DNA of 64,000 nucleotides, taken from NCBI GenBank assembly GCA_015068305.1, contig SVKV01000001.1, forward strand, positions 1 through 64,000, written 5' to 3'. Both the position numbers and the translations under genes were made by a program. This document shows positions 11,386 through 54,505 of the stretch, piece by piece (position 1 is the stretch's first letter; every line of letters begins with the position of its first letter). Origin of the DNA: Oscillospiraceae bacterium (GTDB lineage Bacteria; Bacillota; Clostridia; Oscillospirales; Oscillospiraceae). The notes below the pieces were generated by a model. It saw nothing but the letters and a program-made list of their open reading frames with translations, searched no databases and was not told the DNA's origin.

Positions 11386-11402
11386 CAAATTGGAATTTGT
11401 CG
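11386..11402 (-). repeat. Island A left-end motif
   Basis: CAAATTGGAATTTGTCG, the reverse complement form of the island-end motif CGAYAAA-N4-AATTTG. Confidence 0.75.
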
Positions 11403-11564
11403 TTTAGTTGCTATGGCGCGGGAGCGCCCAAGGCTCCCCTTGTCAGGGGAGCTGTCAGCCGAACAGGCTGACTGAGGGGTAGTGTTCTCTCCCTCCGGCA
11501 AAAATCAAAGATTTTTGCCACCTCCCTCATCAGAGGGAGGCTTTGGCTGGGTGCGAACCCGGAG
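11403..11564. repeat. Island A interior palindromic repeats
   Basis: No gene was found. The interior has several palindromes: AAGGCTCCCCTTGTCAGGGGAGC, CAGCCGAACAGGCTG, AAAAATC...GATTTTT and CCTCCCTCATCAGAGGGAGG. These resemble the dispersed AGGCTCCCC...GAGGGAGGC repeats known from many gut Clostridia. It lies between the nfnAB terminator and the rimP promoter. Confidence 0.65.
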
Positions 11565-11581
11565 CGACAAACTGTAATTTG
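11565..11581 (+). repeat. Island A right-end motif, first copy
   Basis: CGACAAACTGTAATTTG. The conserved outer bases CGACAAA and AATTTG match the left end while the four central bases differ. Confidence 0.75.
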
Positions 11582-14387: not shown

Positions 14388-16766
14388 TTGAGTTTTGTGA
14401 AGTATCGTTTGAAGGAAGTGGCTACCGATTTCGGCACCACGCCCAAGGAAATTGCAGAAATCATCGGCAAGTTCGGTGAGCGCCCCAAGTCCAACACCCA
14501 GGTTCTGACCGATGCAGAGCTGAACTGCGTGTTTGACTACATGACCAAGACCCACCAGATCAGCTCCATTGAGCAGGTCTTTGCAGCTGCCAAGAAGGCA
14601 GAGCCCAAGCCCGCTGCCCCCAAGGCAGAGGCTCCCAAGCAGCCCCAGAATCAGAACCGTCCTCAGCAGGGCGGCCAGAACCGTCCCCAGCAGGGCGGTC
14701 AGAACCGTCCCCAGCAGCCTCAGCAGCAGGCCCGTCCCCAGCAGCCCGCCGCTCCCCAGAAGCCTGCGGAGCCCGAGCGGAAGCGGGAGCGCCGGGTGGT
14801 GGATACCTCCGCGGTCCAGGTCAATGCCAACCGCTTTGCCGATGTTGACAATCTGGTTTCCGAGAAGGTTCAGAATTACCAGGGCGGCAAGCAGCGCATC
14901 GGCGGCAAGGGTGCCAAGCAGCAGAAGCAGCAACAGAACCTCAAAAAGGGCAACAAGTCCCGCAACGAGGAGCAGGAAAAGATGCGCCGCCTCCAGATGG
15001 AGGTTGCCCGGAAGGCTCCCACCGTGGTCAAGATCCCCGATGAGATCACCGTTGCAGAGCTGGCTTCCCGGATGAAGAAGACCGTGGCCGAAGTCATCAA
15101 GTGTCTGATGAAGAACGGCGTCATGGCCGCCATGAACCAGACCATCGACTTTGATACCGCCGAATTTGTGGCCACCGAGCTGGGCTGCAAGGTGGAAAAG
15201 GAAATCACCGTCACCATCGAGGAGCGGATCATCGACGACCATGTGGACTCCGCCGAAGAGCTGGAGACCCGTGCTCCCGTCGTTGTTGTCATGGGTCACG
15301 TTGACCACGGCAAGACCTCTACTCTGGACGCCATCCGCAAGACCTCTGTCACCGCAGGCGAAGCCGGCGGCATCACCCAGCACATCGGTGCTTATACCGT
15401 GGATGTGAACGGCCAGATGATCACCTTCCTGGATACCCCCGGCCACGCTGCCTTTACTTCCATGCGTGCCCGCGGCGCCAAGTCCACCGACATCGCCATT
15501 CTGGTGGTTGCTGCCGACGACGGCATCATGCCCCAGACCATCGAATCCATCAACCACGCCAAGGCCGCTGAAGTGCCTCTGATCGTGGCCATCAACAAGA
15601 TGGATAAGCCCACCGCAAACCCCGACAAGATCAAGGAGCAGCTGACCAAGTATGACCTGATCCCCGAGGAGTGGGGCGGCGACACCATCATCGTGCCCAT
15701 CTCCGCCAAGACCGGCATGGGTCTGGACGACCTGCTGGAAATGGTCCTGCTGACCGCCGAGGTCCAGGAGCTGAAGGCCAACCCCAACCGCCGGGCAAAG
15801 GGCACCGTCATCGAAGCAAGATTGGACAAGACCCGTGGCCCCGTGGCTACCCTGCTGGTCCAGAACGGCACCCTGAAGCAGGGCGATATCGTCATCGCCG
15901 GTACTTCCGTGGGCCGTGTCCGCGTCATGACCAACGACAAGGGCCGCACCGTCAAGACCGCCGGTCCCTCCATTCCTGTTGAGATCACCGGCCTTGCCGA
16001 GGTTCCCACCCCCGGCGACGAATTCAATGCCGTTACCGACGAGCGTATGGCAAGAGAACTGGTGGAGCAGCGCAAGCAGGCTCAGAAGGATGCCGCTGCA
16101 AAGCTCCAGCAGAAGGTCACTCTGGATAACCTCTTCAGCCGGATGCAGGAAGGCGAGATGAAGAACCTGAACCTGATCGTTAAGGCCGACGTTCAGGGCT
16201 CCGCCGAGGCTGTGAAGGCATCCCTGGAGAAGATCTCCAACGAGGAGGTCCGGGTCAAGGTCATCCATGCCGGTGTCGGCGCCATCAACGAGTCCGACGT
16301 GCTGCTGGCCTCCACCTCCGGTGCCATCATCATCGGCTTCAACGTCCGTCCCGACTCCGGTGCCCAGGCATCCGCCCAGCGCACCAACGTGGATATGCGG
16401 TTCTACCGTGTTATCTACGATGCCATCGACGAGATCGAAGCTGCCATGAAGGGCATGCTGGCTCCCAAGTTTGAGGAAGTGGTCCTGGGCCACGCCGAAG
16501 TCCGCCAGACCTACAAGGTTTCCGCCATCGGCACCGTTGCCGGCTGTATGGTCAAGGACGGCAAGGTTACCCGTGACGGCCAGGTCCGCATCCTGCGCGA
16601 CAACATCGTCATTTACGAAGGCGAGATCGGCTCCCTGCAGCGGTTCAAGGATGCTGCCAAGGAAGTCACCGCCGGCTACGAATGCGGCATGACCATTGCA
16701 GGCTACAACGATATCAAGGAATTCGATATCTTCGAGTGCTTCGCAATGCAGGAAGTGAAGAGATAA
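14388..16766 (+). CDS. infB: Translation initiation factor IF-2
   Basis: A 792-residue GTPase that brings initiator tRNA to the 30S subunit. The N terminus has an IF2_N module, then a low-complexity Gln/Pro/Asn linker with three QNRPQQ-type repeats (about residues 85-125), a second IF2_N module, the G domain (G1 GHVDHGKTS near 303, G3 DTPGH, G4 NKMD) and C-terminal barrel domains. The start codon is TTG at 14388 behind GGAGGTG; I see no better ATG. The linker is unusually proline/glutamine-rich. An intergenic repeat lies on each side of the gene. Confidence 0.95.
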
Positions 16767-22567: not shown

Positions 22568-22975
22568 CAAATTGGAATTTATCGCTCCGATGACCGATGT
22601 TACTTTCTTGTTTCCGAACAAGAAAGTAACCAAAGAAATCGGCTAAAGGGTGGCTTTTTACAAAGACGCCTCCCTTTAGAATCCCCCTCCGAAACAGGCA
22701 AGGCCCGCAGAATTTCTACTAAGTGCGCAAGTGTTCCGACTTGCGCCCTGCCGAATTACCCTGGAACCTTCCCTGCGGAGCAAACCTTCAGATTTTCTGC
22801 ATGCAAGCGTTCAAAAATCGGAACATTTTTGAATGCTGGACGGCGATGCGGCGGGTGGATTCTTAAGGAGGGCGCATTTGCCCGTAGCGCCTCCTTAAGT
22901 CGGCTTCTTTGGGGCACCTTTCTTGCCGAAACAAGAAAGGTGCGAAAACTTAACGTATCGACAAACTGTAATTTG
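22568..22975. repeat. Island B: 408-bp two-hairpin element with terminal inverted motifs
   Basis: It is bounded by CAAATTGGAATTTATCG (22568-22584) and CGACAAACTGTAATTTG (22959-22975). Inside are hairpin 1 (TTACTTTCTTG...CAAGAAAGTAA), then CCAAAGAA, a variable middle, a conserved core containing CAAAAATCGGAACATTTTTG, and hairpin 2 (CACCTTTCTTG...CAAGAAAGGTG). The element at 45283-45659 has the same parts in reverse orientation with a different middle. The 171-codon ORF across it has no ribosome site and is not conserved in the other copy. Confidence 0.85.
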
Positions 22976-32334: not shown

Positions 32335-32622
32335 CAAATTACAGTGTATCGGGATGCCCCGATAGGCAATGCGTGCCCGGTGCAGCAATTGTCGTAACTG
32401 CCCTAACCCGCTCGGTATCGTTCCTGCGGTAGTCAAATTGCAGTTTATCGATCATTGTCAAAGGCTTCTCCTTGAGGAGAAGCTGTCACCGAAGGTGACT
32501 GATGAGGTGTAAAAAGAGGACTAAACGCCGCTTTGCGGCTACACCTCATCCGACCTCGCTAACGCTCGGCCACCTTCCCCTCAAGGGGAAGGCTTAGGAA
32601 CAGATCGACAAATTCCAATTTT
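32335..32622. repeat. Island C: composite repeat island
   Basis: Left-end motif CAAATTACAGTGTATCG (32335-32351), an internal left-end motif CAAATTGCAGTTTATCG (32434-32450) and right end CGACAAATTCCAATTTT (32606-32622). Between the first two is the GCAATGCGTGC repeat; between the last two is the 120-bp repeat and a CCTTCCCCTCAAGGGGAAGG palindrome. The right end lies 24 bp before the next start codon. No gene was found here. A TATAAT-like box at 32303 lacks a good -35. Confidence 0.8.
32454..32573. repeat. 120-bp intergenic repeat, copy 2
   Basis: Reverse complement of 1-120 with one mismatch found. It is the interior of island C and must have moved or converged recently, given the near-identity across more than 32 kb. 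Confidence 0.9.
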
Positions 32623-36087: not shown

Positions 36088-36747
36088 TTATTCCCAGAAA
36101 CGGCGGGCGCAGATATAACGCTCGGTAAAGTAATTTCCGGCCAGGTTCATTTCAGACACCGGATGCTCGGAATTCCGGGCTGCGATGAACTTGTCACCGC
36201 CGATGTAGATGCCGCAGTACTGAATGGTGCCGGGCTCGTCGTTGTAGAAGAACACGGCGTCACCGGGCAGCAGGTCTTCCTTCTCGATTTCCTCGCCGAA
36301 GGTGGCCAGCTCCTTGGTGGTCCGGGGAACCTTGATGCCGAATTCCCGGAAGCAGTAGTACAGCAGACCCGAAACGTCGAAGGCATCGGGGCCGGCAGCG
36401 GCGCTGCCGTAGGGCTTTTCCAGCTGCTCCCTGGCAAGCTCTGCAACCTGGTCGCCGATGGTCAGATCATCCGAATCCTCGGGCGCTGCAGTGGGTGCTT
36501 CCGTGGGAGCCTCGGTGGGGGCTTCCGTAGGTGCTTCTGTGGGAGCCTCCGTGGGAGCTTCGGTGGGAGCTTCCGTGGGAGCCTCGGTAGGTGCTTCCGT
36601 GGGCGCTTCCGTAGGAGCCTCAGTGGGGGCTTCGGTGGGTACAGCGGTCTCGGGAACAAATTCCGTAGGCGGGGTGCTGTATTTGCCGCAGGCTGCCAGG
36701 CTGACGCACAGGGCAAGAATCAGTAATAAGCAACTCATCTTTTTCAT
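36088..36747 (-). CDS. NlpC/P60-like lipoprotein lacking catalytic Cys and His
   Basis: A 219-residue lipoprotein: signal peptide with lipobox LAAC, then about a dozen PTEA repeats (residues about 32-90) as a wall-spanning spacer, then an NlpC/P60-like domain (DQVAELAREQLEKPYG onward). In peptidoglycan hydrolases the domain carries DCSGL and HVGIYIG; here the first reads FDVSGLLYYC (Cys to Val, codon GTT) and the second QYCGIYIG, so cysteine and histidine are both missing. It is therefore probably a binding or scaffold domain. The ATG at 36747 was chosen over the track start because GGAG precedes it and it gives a proper signal peptide. Confidence 0.8.
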   Translation of the reverse strand: MKKMSCLLLILALCVSLAACGKYSTPPTEFVPETAVPTEAPTEAPTEAPTEAPTEAPTEAPTEAPTEAPTEAPTEAPTEAPTEAPTAAPEDSDDLTIGDQVAELAREQLEKPYGSAAAGPDAFDVSGLLYYCFREFGIKVPRTTKELATFGEEIEKEDLLPGDAVFFYNDEPGTIQYCGIYIGGDKFIAARNSEHPVSEMNLAGNYFTERYICARRFWE

Positions 36748-39979: not shown

Positions 39980-40195
39980 TAAATTGGAGTTTGTCGCGCA
40001 GTCTACCCTAATATGTCATTGCGAACCAGTGCGCACACTGGTGTGGCAATCCGTTCTCTAAAATGTTGCGTTTTCAATGGTAGTTACGGATTTATTATAA
40101 CGTTTGGAGATGCGGATTGCCACGTCGGGGCATGGCCCCTCCTCGCAATGACATGATTGGTAGTGCGTTGCAACAGAACGCCAAACTGTAATTTG
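39980..40195. repeat. Island D: TCATTGCGA-type element within end motifs
   Basis: Bounded by TAAATTGGAGTTTGTCG (39980-39996) and CGCCAAACTGTAATTTG (40179-40195). The interior (40014-40153) is an inverted repeat: TGTCATTGCGAACCAGTGCGC...GTGGCAATCCG left, CGGATTGCCACGTCGG...CCTCGCAATGACA right. No gene was seen. The right end is 18 bp before the next start codon, with the ribosome site in between. Confidence 0.8.
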
Positions 40196-50146: not shown

Positions 50147-50618
50147 GCAAAAACTCCTTTCATATATTTGTATTGCTATTATAGCATTTCTTATTCGAAG
50201 TAGTCAAATTACTGATGGCAAAAACAATTCCGAAACTTTGTAATGCCTGACGGCACTTTCGGTTATAAAGTAACCAACTTATAAAACTGAGCGTTTAACT
50301 CAACCAATAAGGCAACAGAAGTTGCCAACTGCCTTTACGCAGTTTGCGGCTTTTGACCCGGCCGTCCGTATGGCCTTAGCCGATGAATCATCGGCGGTCA
50401 AAAATCTTGCTTCGGAAACACTGTTCCAATTGAGATTGCGATGAGAATACAACAAAAAATAATTGATGTCAATATGAGAAAACTGATATTTTCCCTGTTA
50501 TTCTGTGGATTGCTCCATTCTTAAAACAAATATGTCCAATCCTAAGGAACTGGACATAGCGCCTTAAGGTTCTGTTTTGCATTATAGCTGAATCGTCAAA
50601 TCTGGTATTAAACTGAAA
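50147..50618. other. Structured, gene-free segment of the ppdK insertion
   Basis: About 470 bp without a convincing ORF. From 50231 to 50403 there is an unbroken series of stem-loops: CCGAAA/TTTCGG enclosing TGCC/GGCA; GGTTA/TAACC; TGAG/CTCA; GGCAAC-agaa-GTTGCC; AACTGC/GCAGTT; then a closing stem TTTTGACC/GGTCAAAA around two hairpins (GGCC/GGCC and CCGATGA-a-TCATCGG). It may be a structured RNA or a mobile-element end; neither strand is favoured. The remainder is AT-rich and featureless. Confidence 0.55.
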
Positions 50619-54280: not shown

Positions 54281-54505
54281 TGAATTGGAATTTATCGATC
54301 TGTTGGAATGATGGCATCCTAACGGATGCCAGGGTTACGGATTGCCACACCAGTGTGCGCACTGGTTCGCAATGACAGTATTTTTCGGTACATTCCGCAC
54401 CATTTTTAGCGCAGCCAACCACCAGGCTTCCATGTCATTGCGAGGAGGCCTGAAAGGCCGACGTGGCAATCCGTTACTCCAAACGAAACGATAAACTGAA
54501 ATTTG
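54281..54505. repeat. Island F: TCATTGCGA-type half-elements within end motifs
   Basis: Bounded by TGAATTGGAATTTATCG (54281-54297) and CGATAAACTGAAATTTG (54489-54505). The interior has GGATTGCCACACCAGTG...TTCGCAATGACA (54334-54377) and then TGTCATTGCGAGGAGGCC...GTGGCAATCCG (54433-54476), the reverse order of the arms in island D. No gene was found. The segment 54506-54644 is AT-rich and may hold the promoter of the next gene. Confidence 0.78.

Follow-up and report, generated by a model that had tools for sequence, protein, structure and literature searches.

A likely MITE-like repeat with inverted, exchangeable arms and a predicted pseudoknot in an Oscillospiraceae genome

The first 64,000 nucleotides of contig SVKV01000001.1 of an Oscillospiraceae bacterium (assembly GCA_015068305.1), here called the window, carry two copies of a ~400-base mobile DNA repeat that is dispersed in the genome (Table 1). 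Copy B is in the spacer between a CapA-like and an asparaginase-like gene, and copy E is between trx/trxB-like genes in the opposite orientation. Their likeness is far above chance, with common blocks of 73, 83, and 38 nt at 86 to 97% identity, in keeping with the original prediction of one element present twice in inverted orientation; the motifs that it quoted are all found at the positions reported and coincide exactly with the element ends. Whole-element searches of the host genome (2.12 Mb in 62 contigs, 95% complete, gut Oscillospiraceae type) recover ~26 copies or part copies, with 90 to 100% identity over 380 to 417 nt at four places. Several copies are cut off at contig ends, since the assembly breaks at the repeat, and complete copies of this arm-bearing family span 377 to 429 bp. 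Elsewhere in the window, there is a match to the Rfam family SpF59_sRNA (RF02440), which was described in Streptococcus, at 50346-50400 on the minus strand (61 bits, E-value of 1.5e-8); a 12-nt repeat present 11 times in register at 36464-36655, apparently coding; and 24-nt repeats of the CAGAACCGTCCCCAGCAGGG type at 14652-14750, apparently in frame.

Table 1. Repeat elements in the window and their component features
Feature	Coordinates	Strand	Evidence
Copy B, complete 408-bp element, left arm X1, right arm P1	22568-22975	+	Whole-element search and TIR pair
Left TIR CAAATTGGAATTTATCG	22568-22584	+	Exact pattern match; profile 28.9 bits
Hairpin a, left arm, S1 12 bp GTTACTTTCTTG/CAAGAAAGTAAC, loop 22611-22618	22599-22630	+	Pairing statistics
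S2, left arm, loop side CCGA	22614-22617	+	Covariation
A-rich linker CAAAGAAA, left arm	22631-22638	+	
S2, left arm, linker side TCGG	22639-22642	+	Covariation
Hairpin b, left arm, X1 type CTAAAGGG...CCCTTTAG	22643-22679	+	Stem comparison, pairing
Hairpin c, left arm GCGCAAGTGTTCCGACTTGCGC	22725-22746	+	Pairing statistics
Hairpin c, right arm, the originally predicted core TTCAAAAATCGGAACATTTTTGAA	22810-22833	-	Pairing statistics
Hairpin b, right arm, P1 type CTTAAGGAGG...CCTCCTTAAG	22862-22899	-	Stem comparison, pairing
S2, right arm, linker side, GCCGA on minus strand	22900-22904	-	Covariation
Hairpin a, right arm GCACCTTTCTTG/CAAGAAAGGTGC; inner bases 22925-22929 pair with 22900-22904	22914-22943	-	
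Right TIR CAAATTACAGTTTGTCG	22959-22975	-	Pattern and profile match
Copy E, complete 377-bp element, arms Y and P2	45283-45659	-	TIR pair and arm typing
Copy E spacer, thioredoxin-like and thioredoxin reductase-like genes on either side	45283-45659		Gene names by eye
Same TIRs, unrelated hairpin interior, ~200-bp subfamily	11386-11581	.	TIR pair and folding
Same TIRs, unrelated interior, 189-bp subfamily	32434-32622	.	TIR pair and folding
Same TIRs, GTCATTGCGA...TGGCAATCC interior	39980-40195	.	TIR pair and folding
Same TIRs, GTCATTGCGA...TGGCAATCC interior	54281-54505	.	TIR pair and folding

Each complete copy is bounded by CAAATTNNARTTTRTCG and its inverse, a 17-bp quasi-palindromic terminal inverted repeat (TIR). 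Allowing at most one mismatch, the TIR pattern has 108 matches versus 0 for the reversed control, and a TIR profile applied to 428 kb has 172 matches versus 2 for the reversed profile. The ends are of two kinds, starting with CAAATTGG and CAAATTAC, and an element usually has one of each. There are 50 convergent TIR pairs in the 428 kb, spaced 145 to 429 bp apart, and no large TIR-bounded element (TIR pair of >430 bp) was found there. By sequence, the TIR-bounded elements form five multicopy subfamilies, of which the arm-bearing element is one, and two singletons; representatives of every subfamily fold into hairpin-rich structures, and the interiors are unrelated. The genome RGIG2129 (G060) has ~412-bp elements with the same arm plan and another TIR, TAAATGATCGTTTATC (66 matches, control 0), and the TAAATGATCGTTTATC ends also enclose a second interior of 213 to 216 bp. 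With the same arm plan found between other ends and the same ends around other interiors, ends and interiors therefore evolve separately. Extra tandem units of ~100 bp, starting with CAAATTACAG and ending with CTGCGGTAGT, are frequent in TIR-bounded elements, as at L129 (17444-17543) and L137 (13603-13807). In G018, the spacer corresponding to that of copy B is occupied by another kind of TIR-bounded element, whose ends are TAAATTATCGTTTAGCG (L154, 950-1170). When viral contigs were scanned, the 16 and 25 TIR matches obtained were single and scattered and are taken as chance. In one viral contig whose sequence matches the locus in the host genome, an X-arm copy adjoins a gene judged capsid-like by eye (L242, 3500-4200; L008), and the repeat may travel on phages.

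The arm-bearing element consists of two arms in inverted orientation, the left being of type X1, X2, or Y and the right of type P1, P2, P3, or Q. The classified copies are Y-P1 (six), X1-P1 and X2-Q (three each), Y-P2 and Y-P3 (two each), and X2-P1 and X1-Q (one each); all four combinations of X1 or X2 with P1 or Q occur, and the arms therefore reassort. The original prediction had described a nonconserved middle, and B and E are indeed no closer there than shuffled sequence, but the region, which is mostly the inner portion of the left arm, comes in two discrete, well-conserved types and does not vary freely. Identity is 90 to 99% among X1 copies and among X2 copies, and X and Y arms are 50% identical, compared with 49% for shuffled sequence, which rules out decay of the middles from one sequence. 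The predicted conserved core (CAAAAATCGGAACATTTTTG...GAATGC) is common to the P-type right arms but is replaced by Q in four copies (L006, L011, L015, and L023). The central proposal of common cores around middles that are not decayed versions of one sequence thus holds among the genomic copies. A protein-coding element was considered and rejected, since the KKVTKE frame is open in Y-P1 copies and broken in X1 copies, and no conserved reading frame was found in the element interiors. The ~120-amino-acid open frame (...NKKVTKE...) of Y-P1 copies (L005, L007, L009, L013, and others) is likely annotated as spurious hypothetical proteins.

From the outside in, an arm is composed of the TIR, hairpin a, a linker, hairpin b, and usually hairpin c. 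The hairpin a stem (S1) has 12 bp, with an invariant inner TTTCTTG/CAAGAAA and 5 variable outer base pairs; the linker, CAAAGAAR, is A-rich; and hairpin c, with the loop AATGTTCCGATT, is a GTTCCG-loop hairpin. The outer pairs of hairpin a are 95% Watson-Crick with their own partners versus 48% with others, and those of hairpin c 90% versus 53%, such that the hairpins first proposed from one stretch of DNA are borne out by covariation, two-sided changes keeping both S1 and hairpin c paired. Hairpin b stems differ by type yet remain paired (CTAAAGGG, CATAGGAGG, CCGGGGCGAGG, CTTAAGGAGG, GTAAAGGGG, ACCTAAGGGG, and CATAGGGG), although their pairing of 96% is no test, as the region was chosen for complementarity. 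In several species, the tip of hairpin b or its vicinity carries an inserted hairpin repeat of smaller size (TTGCCACCGGCAA ... GATTCGCTGCGCGGAGCACCACC), as at six loci (L012, L067, L074, L116, L035, and L052).

The loop of hairpin a is complementary to the bases 3' of the linker, a pairing predicted to form helix S2 of an H-type pseudoknot. The S2 pair sequences are CCGA/TCGG, TCGGC/GCCGA, CCTGC/GCAGG, TGGGC/GCCCA, GCCAT/ATGGC, GCTGA/TCAGC, CCGGC/GCCGG, and CCGC/GCGG. Independent arms were fetched across the class and order with a structural model, R1, that includes hairpin a and omits S2, and these have the further pairs TTTCGC/GCGAAA, ATAG/CTAT, and AATGT/ACATT. In shuffle tests, which take no account of shared ancestry, the mean longest S2 run is 3.91 versus 2.75 ± 0.13 with shuffled partners (0 of 2,000 shuffles reach it), and for the R1 matches it is 3.06 versus 2.23 ± 0.13 (0 of 3,000). 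Four of five S2 pairs in alignment A3 and three of four in A5 have two-sided changes, with no pair altered on a single side, and the whole structures on A3 and A5 outscore every one of 500 shuffles and every slid version; alignment A4, in which a linker-length variant is misaligned, was left out. At least four S2 pairs are present in just 38% of the distinct R1 arms, and by eye the pairing is not evident in most R1 matches outside the class. A single inherited event behind the S2 pairing would be implausible given the variety of pair sequences, and the comparisons support an S2 pseudoknot with two-sided covariation across species, which appears to be new here.

R1 matches are present in 39 of 245 genomes and 26 of 126 genera sampled in the order, in 6 of 291 genomes sampled in the class, and in 9 of 399 in the phylum, the host genome being included in each count. 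Loci with the arm motif are in metagenome-assembled genomes of Oscillospiraceae, "Clostridia," and "Bacillota," many from animal gut. The arm is often single elsewhere, and the inverted pairs observed are in the host genome, RGIG2129, and G018. Lone hairpin a motifs directly adjoin apparent tRNA genes at two loci in other Clostridia (L221 and L229).

The 50 TIR elements are nearly all intergenic, with genes defined by simple open reading frame calls, and have no orientation preference relative to their flanking genes (++, 14; --, 12; +-, 12; -+, 11). At the copy B site, relatives keep both neighboring genes with a shorter spacer lacking the element; in G009 a terminator is followed by a promoter, and here the order is terminator, element, promoter. 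At the copy E site, 14 bp separate the aligned flanks in G012 versus ~398 bp here, the element being flanked by an intact terminator and an intact ribosome-binding region. Copies B and E are discrete insertions between the terminator of one gene and the leader of the next, and we infer insertion rather than loss because several relatives lack the element at each site. No target-site duplication was found in the flanks of the 50 TIR pairs, where only the extended end KT|CAAATT recurs. In RGIG2129, three copies (L104, L115, and L117) are interrupted by other DNA at a shared position in hairpin a of the right arm (CTTGCAGGGGCGG), possibly by IS30-type insertions, judging from the look of the interrupting DNA.

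A search for a partner enzyme gave no match to DDE_Tnp_1 and none above the cutoff to rve in the host genome, and none to Y1_Tnp (PF01797) in either the host (G000) or RGIG2129. No autonomous insertion sequence with the same TIRs was found in the 428 kb or with the three transposase domains, although a 62-contig, 95%-complete assembly could miss one. A 628-residue Mu/TnsB-type transposase with a weak rve match was rejected as the partner, there being no TIR-like sites in 12 kb. This transposase, at L287 (5590-7476; G000:C19), carries Mu-transpos_C and probably belongs to a distinct Tn7-like element.

The element is short with 17-bp TIRs, multicopy, intergenic, and without a transposase gene, and it is discretely inserted at sites that are empty in relatives. 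Because of these ends, size, copies, and empty sites, we consider it likely that this is a MITE-like nonautonomous mobile element with modular, inverted, pseudoknotted arms, moved by a putative enzyme acting in trans. As no target duplication was found, we use the term MITE-like and do not certify it as a MITE, noting that direct repeats flank only four of the database TIMEs (PMC4133298). A 17-bp TIR marks each end of a unit in which two arms face each other, each with a pseudoknotted hairpin a, a paired but changing hairpin b, and the GTTCCG-loop hairpin, as supported by covariation. Copies were inserted into intergenic spacers at discrete sites, as the orthologous empty sites show, and homologous recombination between copies probably exchanges arms and yields new combinations, judging from their reassortment. 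The ends are most likely recognition sites for a transposase or recombinase acting in trans and either absent from the assembly or unrecognizable in it, since five unrelated interiors have common ends and the ends differ in a related species. Most tentatively, the arms are most likely kept since the element passes through, or is recognized as, a folded single strand during mobilization or replication.

It is possible, if unlikely, that this last step alone should be replaced by functionless stem maintenance, in which template switching during replication rewrites hairpin strands of a passive MITE. By template switching, hairpin stems can arise and persist, and multibase compensatory changes can result (PMC8794818); the process suits hairpin b, whose stems change as blocks with constant loops (X1/X2 and P1/P2/P3). 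It also suits the near absence of G-T pairs, of which there are 6 versus 8 A-C mismatches in ~470 stem cells and 1 versus 2 in S1 of the independent R1 matches, both being small numbers. It explains poorly, however, the 4- to 5-nt pairing of loop and linker across a stem strand with an unpaired linker between, in at least eight sequences, or the invariant TTTCTTG/CAAGAAA and linker.

The same counts bear on whether the element is instead a family of structured noncoding RNA genes or cis-acting RNAs that has spread by duplication and in which the pseudoknot is conserved and an arm is variable. H-type RNA pseudoknots typically have an A-rich linker that crosses a long stem, as here; two-sided covariation is seen in S1, S2, and hairpin c; and the arm recurs across genera of the order. 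RNA helices tolerate G-U, but G-T is as rare as A-C here. This rarity and the absence of an orientation bias both argue against a gene-like RNA, and either a fold at the DNA level or template switching would be compatible with them. Rfam 15, searched with gathering and E-value thresholds, gave no relevant match (best, queA at 21 bits versus a gathering score of 52.6), and the inversion of arms within TIRs and the unrelated interiors with the same ends fit an RNA family poorly. We therefore regard it as improbable, although the originally suggested structured RNA with a variable arm was partly right, in that the covarying hairpins and pseudoknot support a selected single-strand fold.

Mobilization as single-stranded DNA, with an HUH-type enzyme (IS200/IS605- or REP/RAYT-like) reading the hairpin and pseudoknot, would account for structured hairpins near both ends, for the lack of target duplication, and for near-perfect Watson-Crick stems, as expected of DNA hairpins. 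We think this very unlikely, given the missing Y1_Tnp gene in both genomes and the inverted arms and truly inverted-repeat ends, unlike IS200/IS605, whose ends are not true inverted repeats. Least probable are the recombination cassettes of the original prediction, with a site-specific recombinase swapping the centre between constant ends; the same ends do enclose different interiors and arm types do reassort, but whole arms and hairpin b stems are exchanged rather than one insert between fixed sites, the interiors share no reading frame, and nothing indicates a site-specific cassette system.

Returning to the MITE-like reading, the element resembles bacterial MITEs such as Correia, ERIC, RUP, and TIMEs (PMC10969869) in being short, TIR bounded, multicopy, intergenic, hairpin forming, and free of a transposase gene, and TIMEs likewise keep their termini while their cores differ (PMC4133298). 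It differs in that neither a target duplication nor a partner insertion sequence was found, in its two inverted arms with a covarying pseudoknot, and in having five unrelated interiors with one set of ends and ends that change from one related species to another. BOX elements of Streptococcus pneumoniae (PMC3049150) are also composite, modular, highly folded intergenic repeats of variable length and module content, but are set apart by their boxA-(boxB)n-boxC architecture with tandem boxB, in contrast to exchangeable inverted arms with a pseudoknot. REP/BIME repeats with RAYTs (PMC2817692, PMC3733652) are similarly high-copy intergenic palindromic units that form composites, whereas the element here is far larger than a 20- to 40-nt palindrome in a genome with no Y1 transposase. 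In style, it comes nearest to BOX elements and to those MITEs that conserve their ends but vary in their cores (PMC3049150, PMC4133298, PMC10969869). The open-access literature searched (subscription journals and supplements being outside its scope) yielded no description of six core 14- to 16-mers or of Oscillospiraceae MITEs. In H-type pseudoknot RNAs, including the preQ1-I riboswitch and frameshift pseudoknots, an A-rich linker separates the hairpin loop from the 3' flank with which it pairs. The arms have the same pairing but differ in the 12-bp S1, the inverted pairs within a mobile repeat, and the lack of an Rfam match.

The usual view of MITE-like repeats is that they are decayed ends of transposons whose hairpins are incidental. 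In the present element, the hairpins are modules that can be exchanged, and two-sided changes preserve the pseudoknot in many different sequences, such that something probably reads the fold. A bolder proposal, which we think rather unlikely, is that mobility depends on the covarying pseudoknot of the element's own single strand, as DNA or RNA, with the arms being portable structured recognition modules that occur across the order either alone or in inverted pairs; the mobilizing system of each host species would fit its own terminal repeats to these modules. The TIR family is abundant, with 50 elements in 428 kb, and it breaks assemblies and creates spurious reading frames. It also raises the testable question of whether single-strand structures are under selection in small bacterial repeats and, if so, which enzyme they serve.
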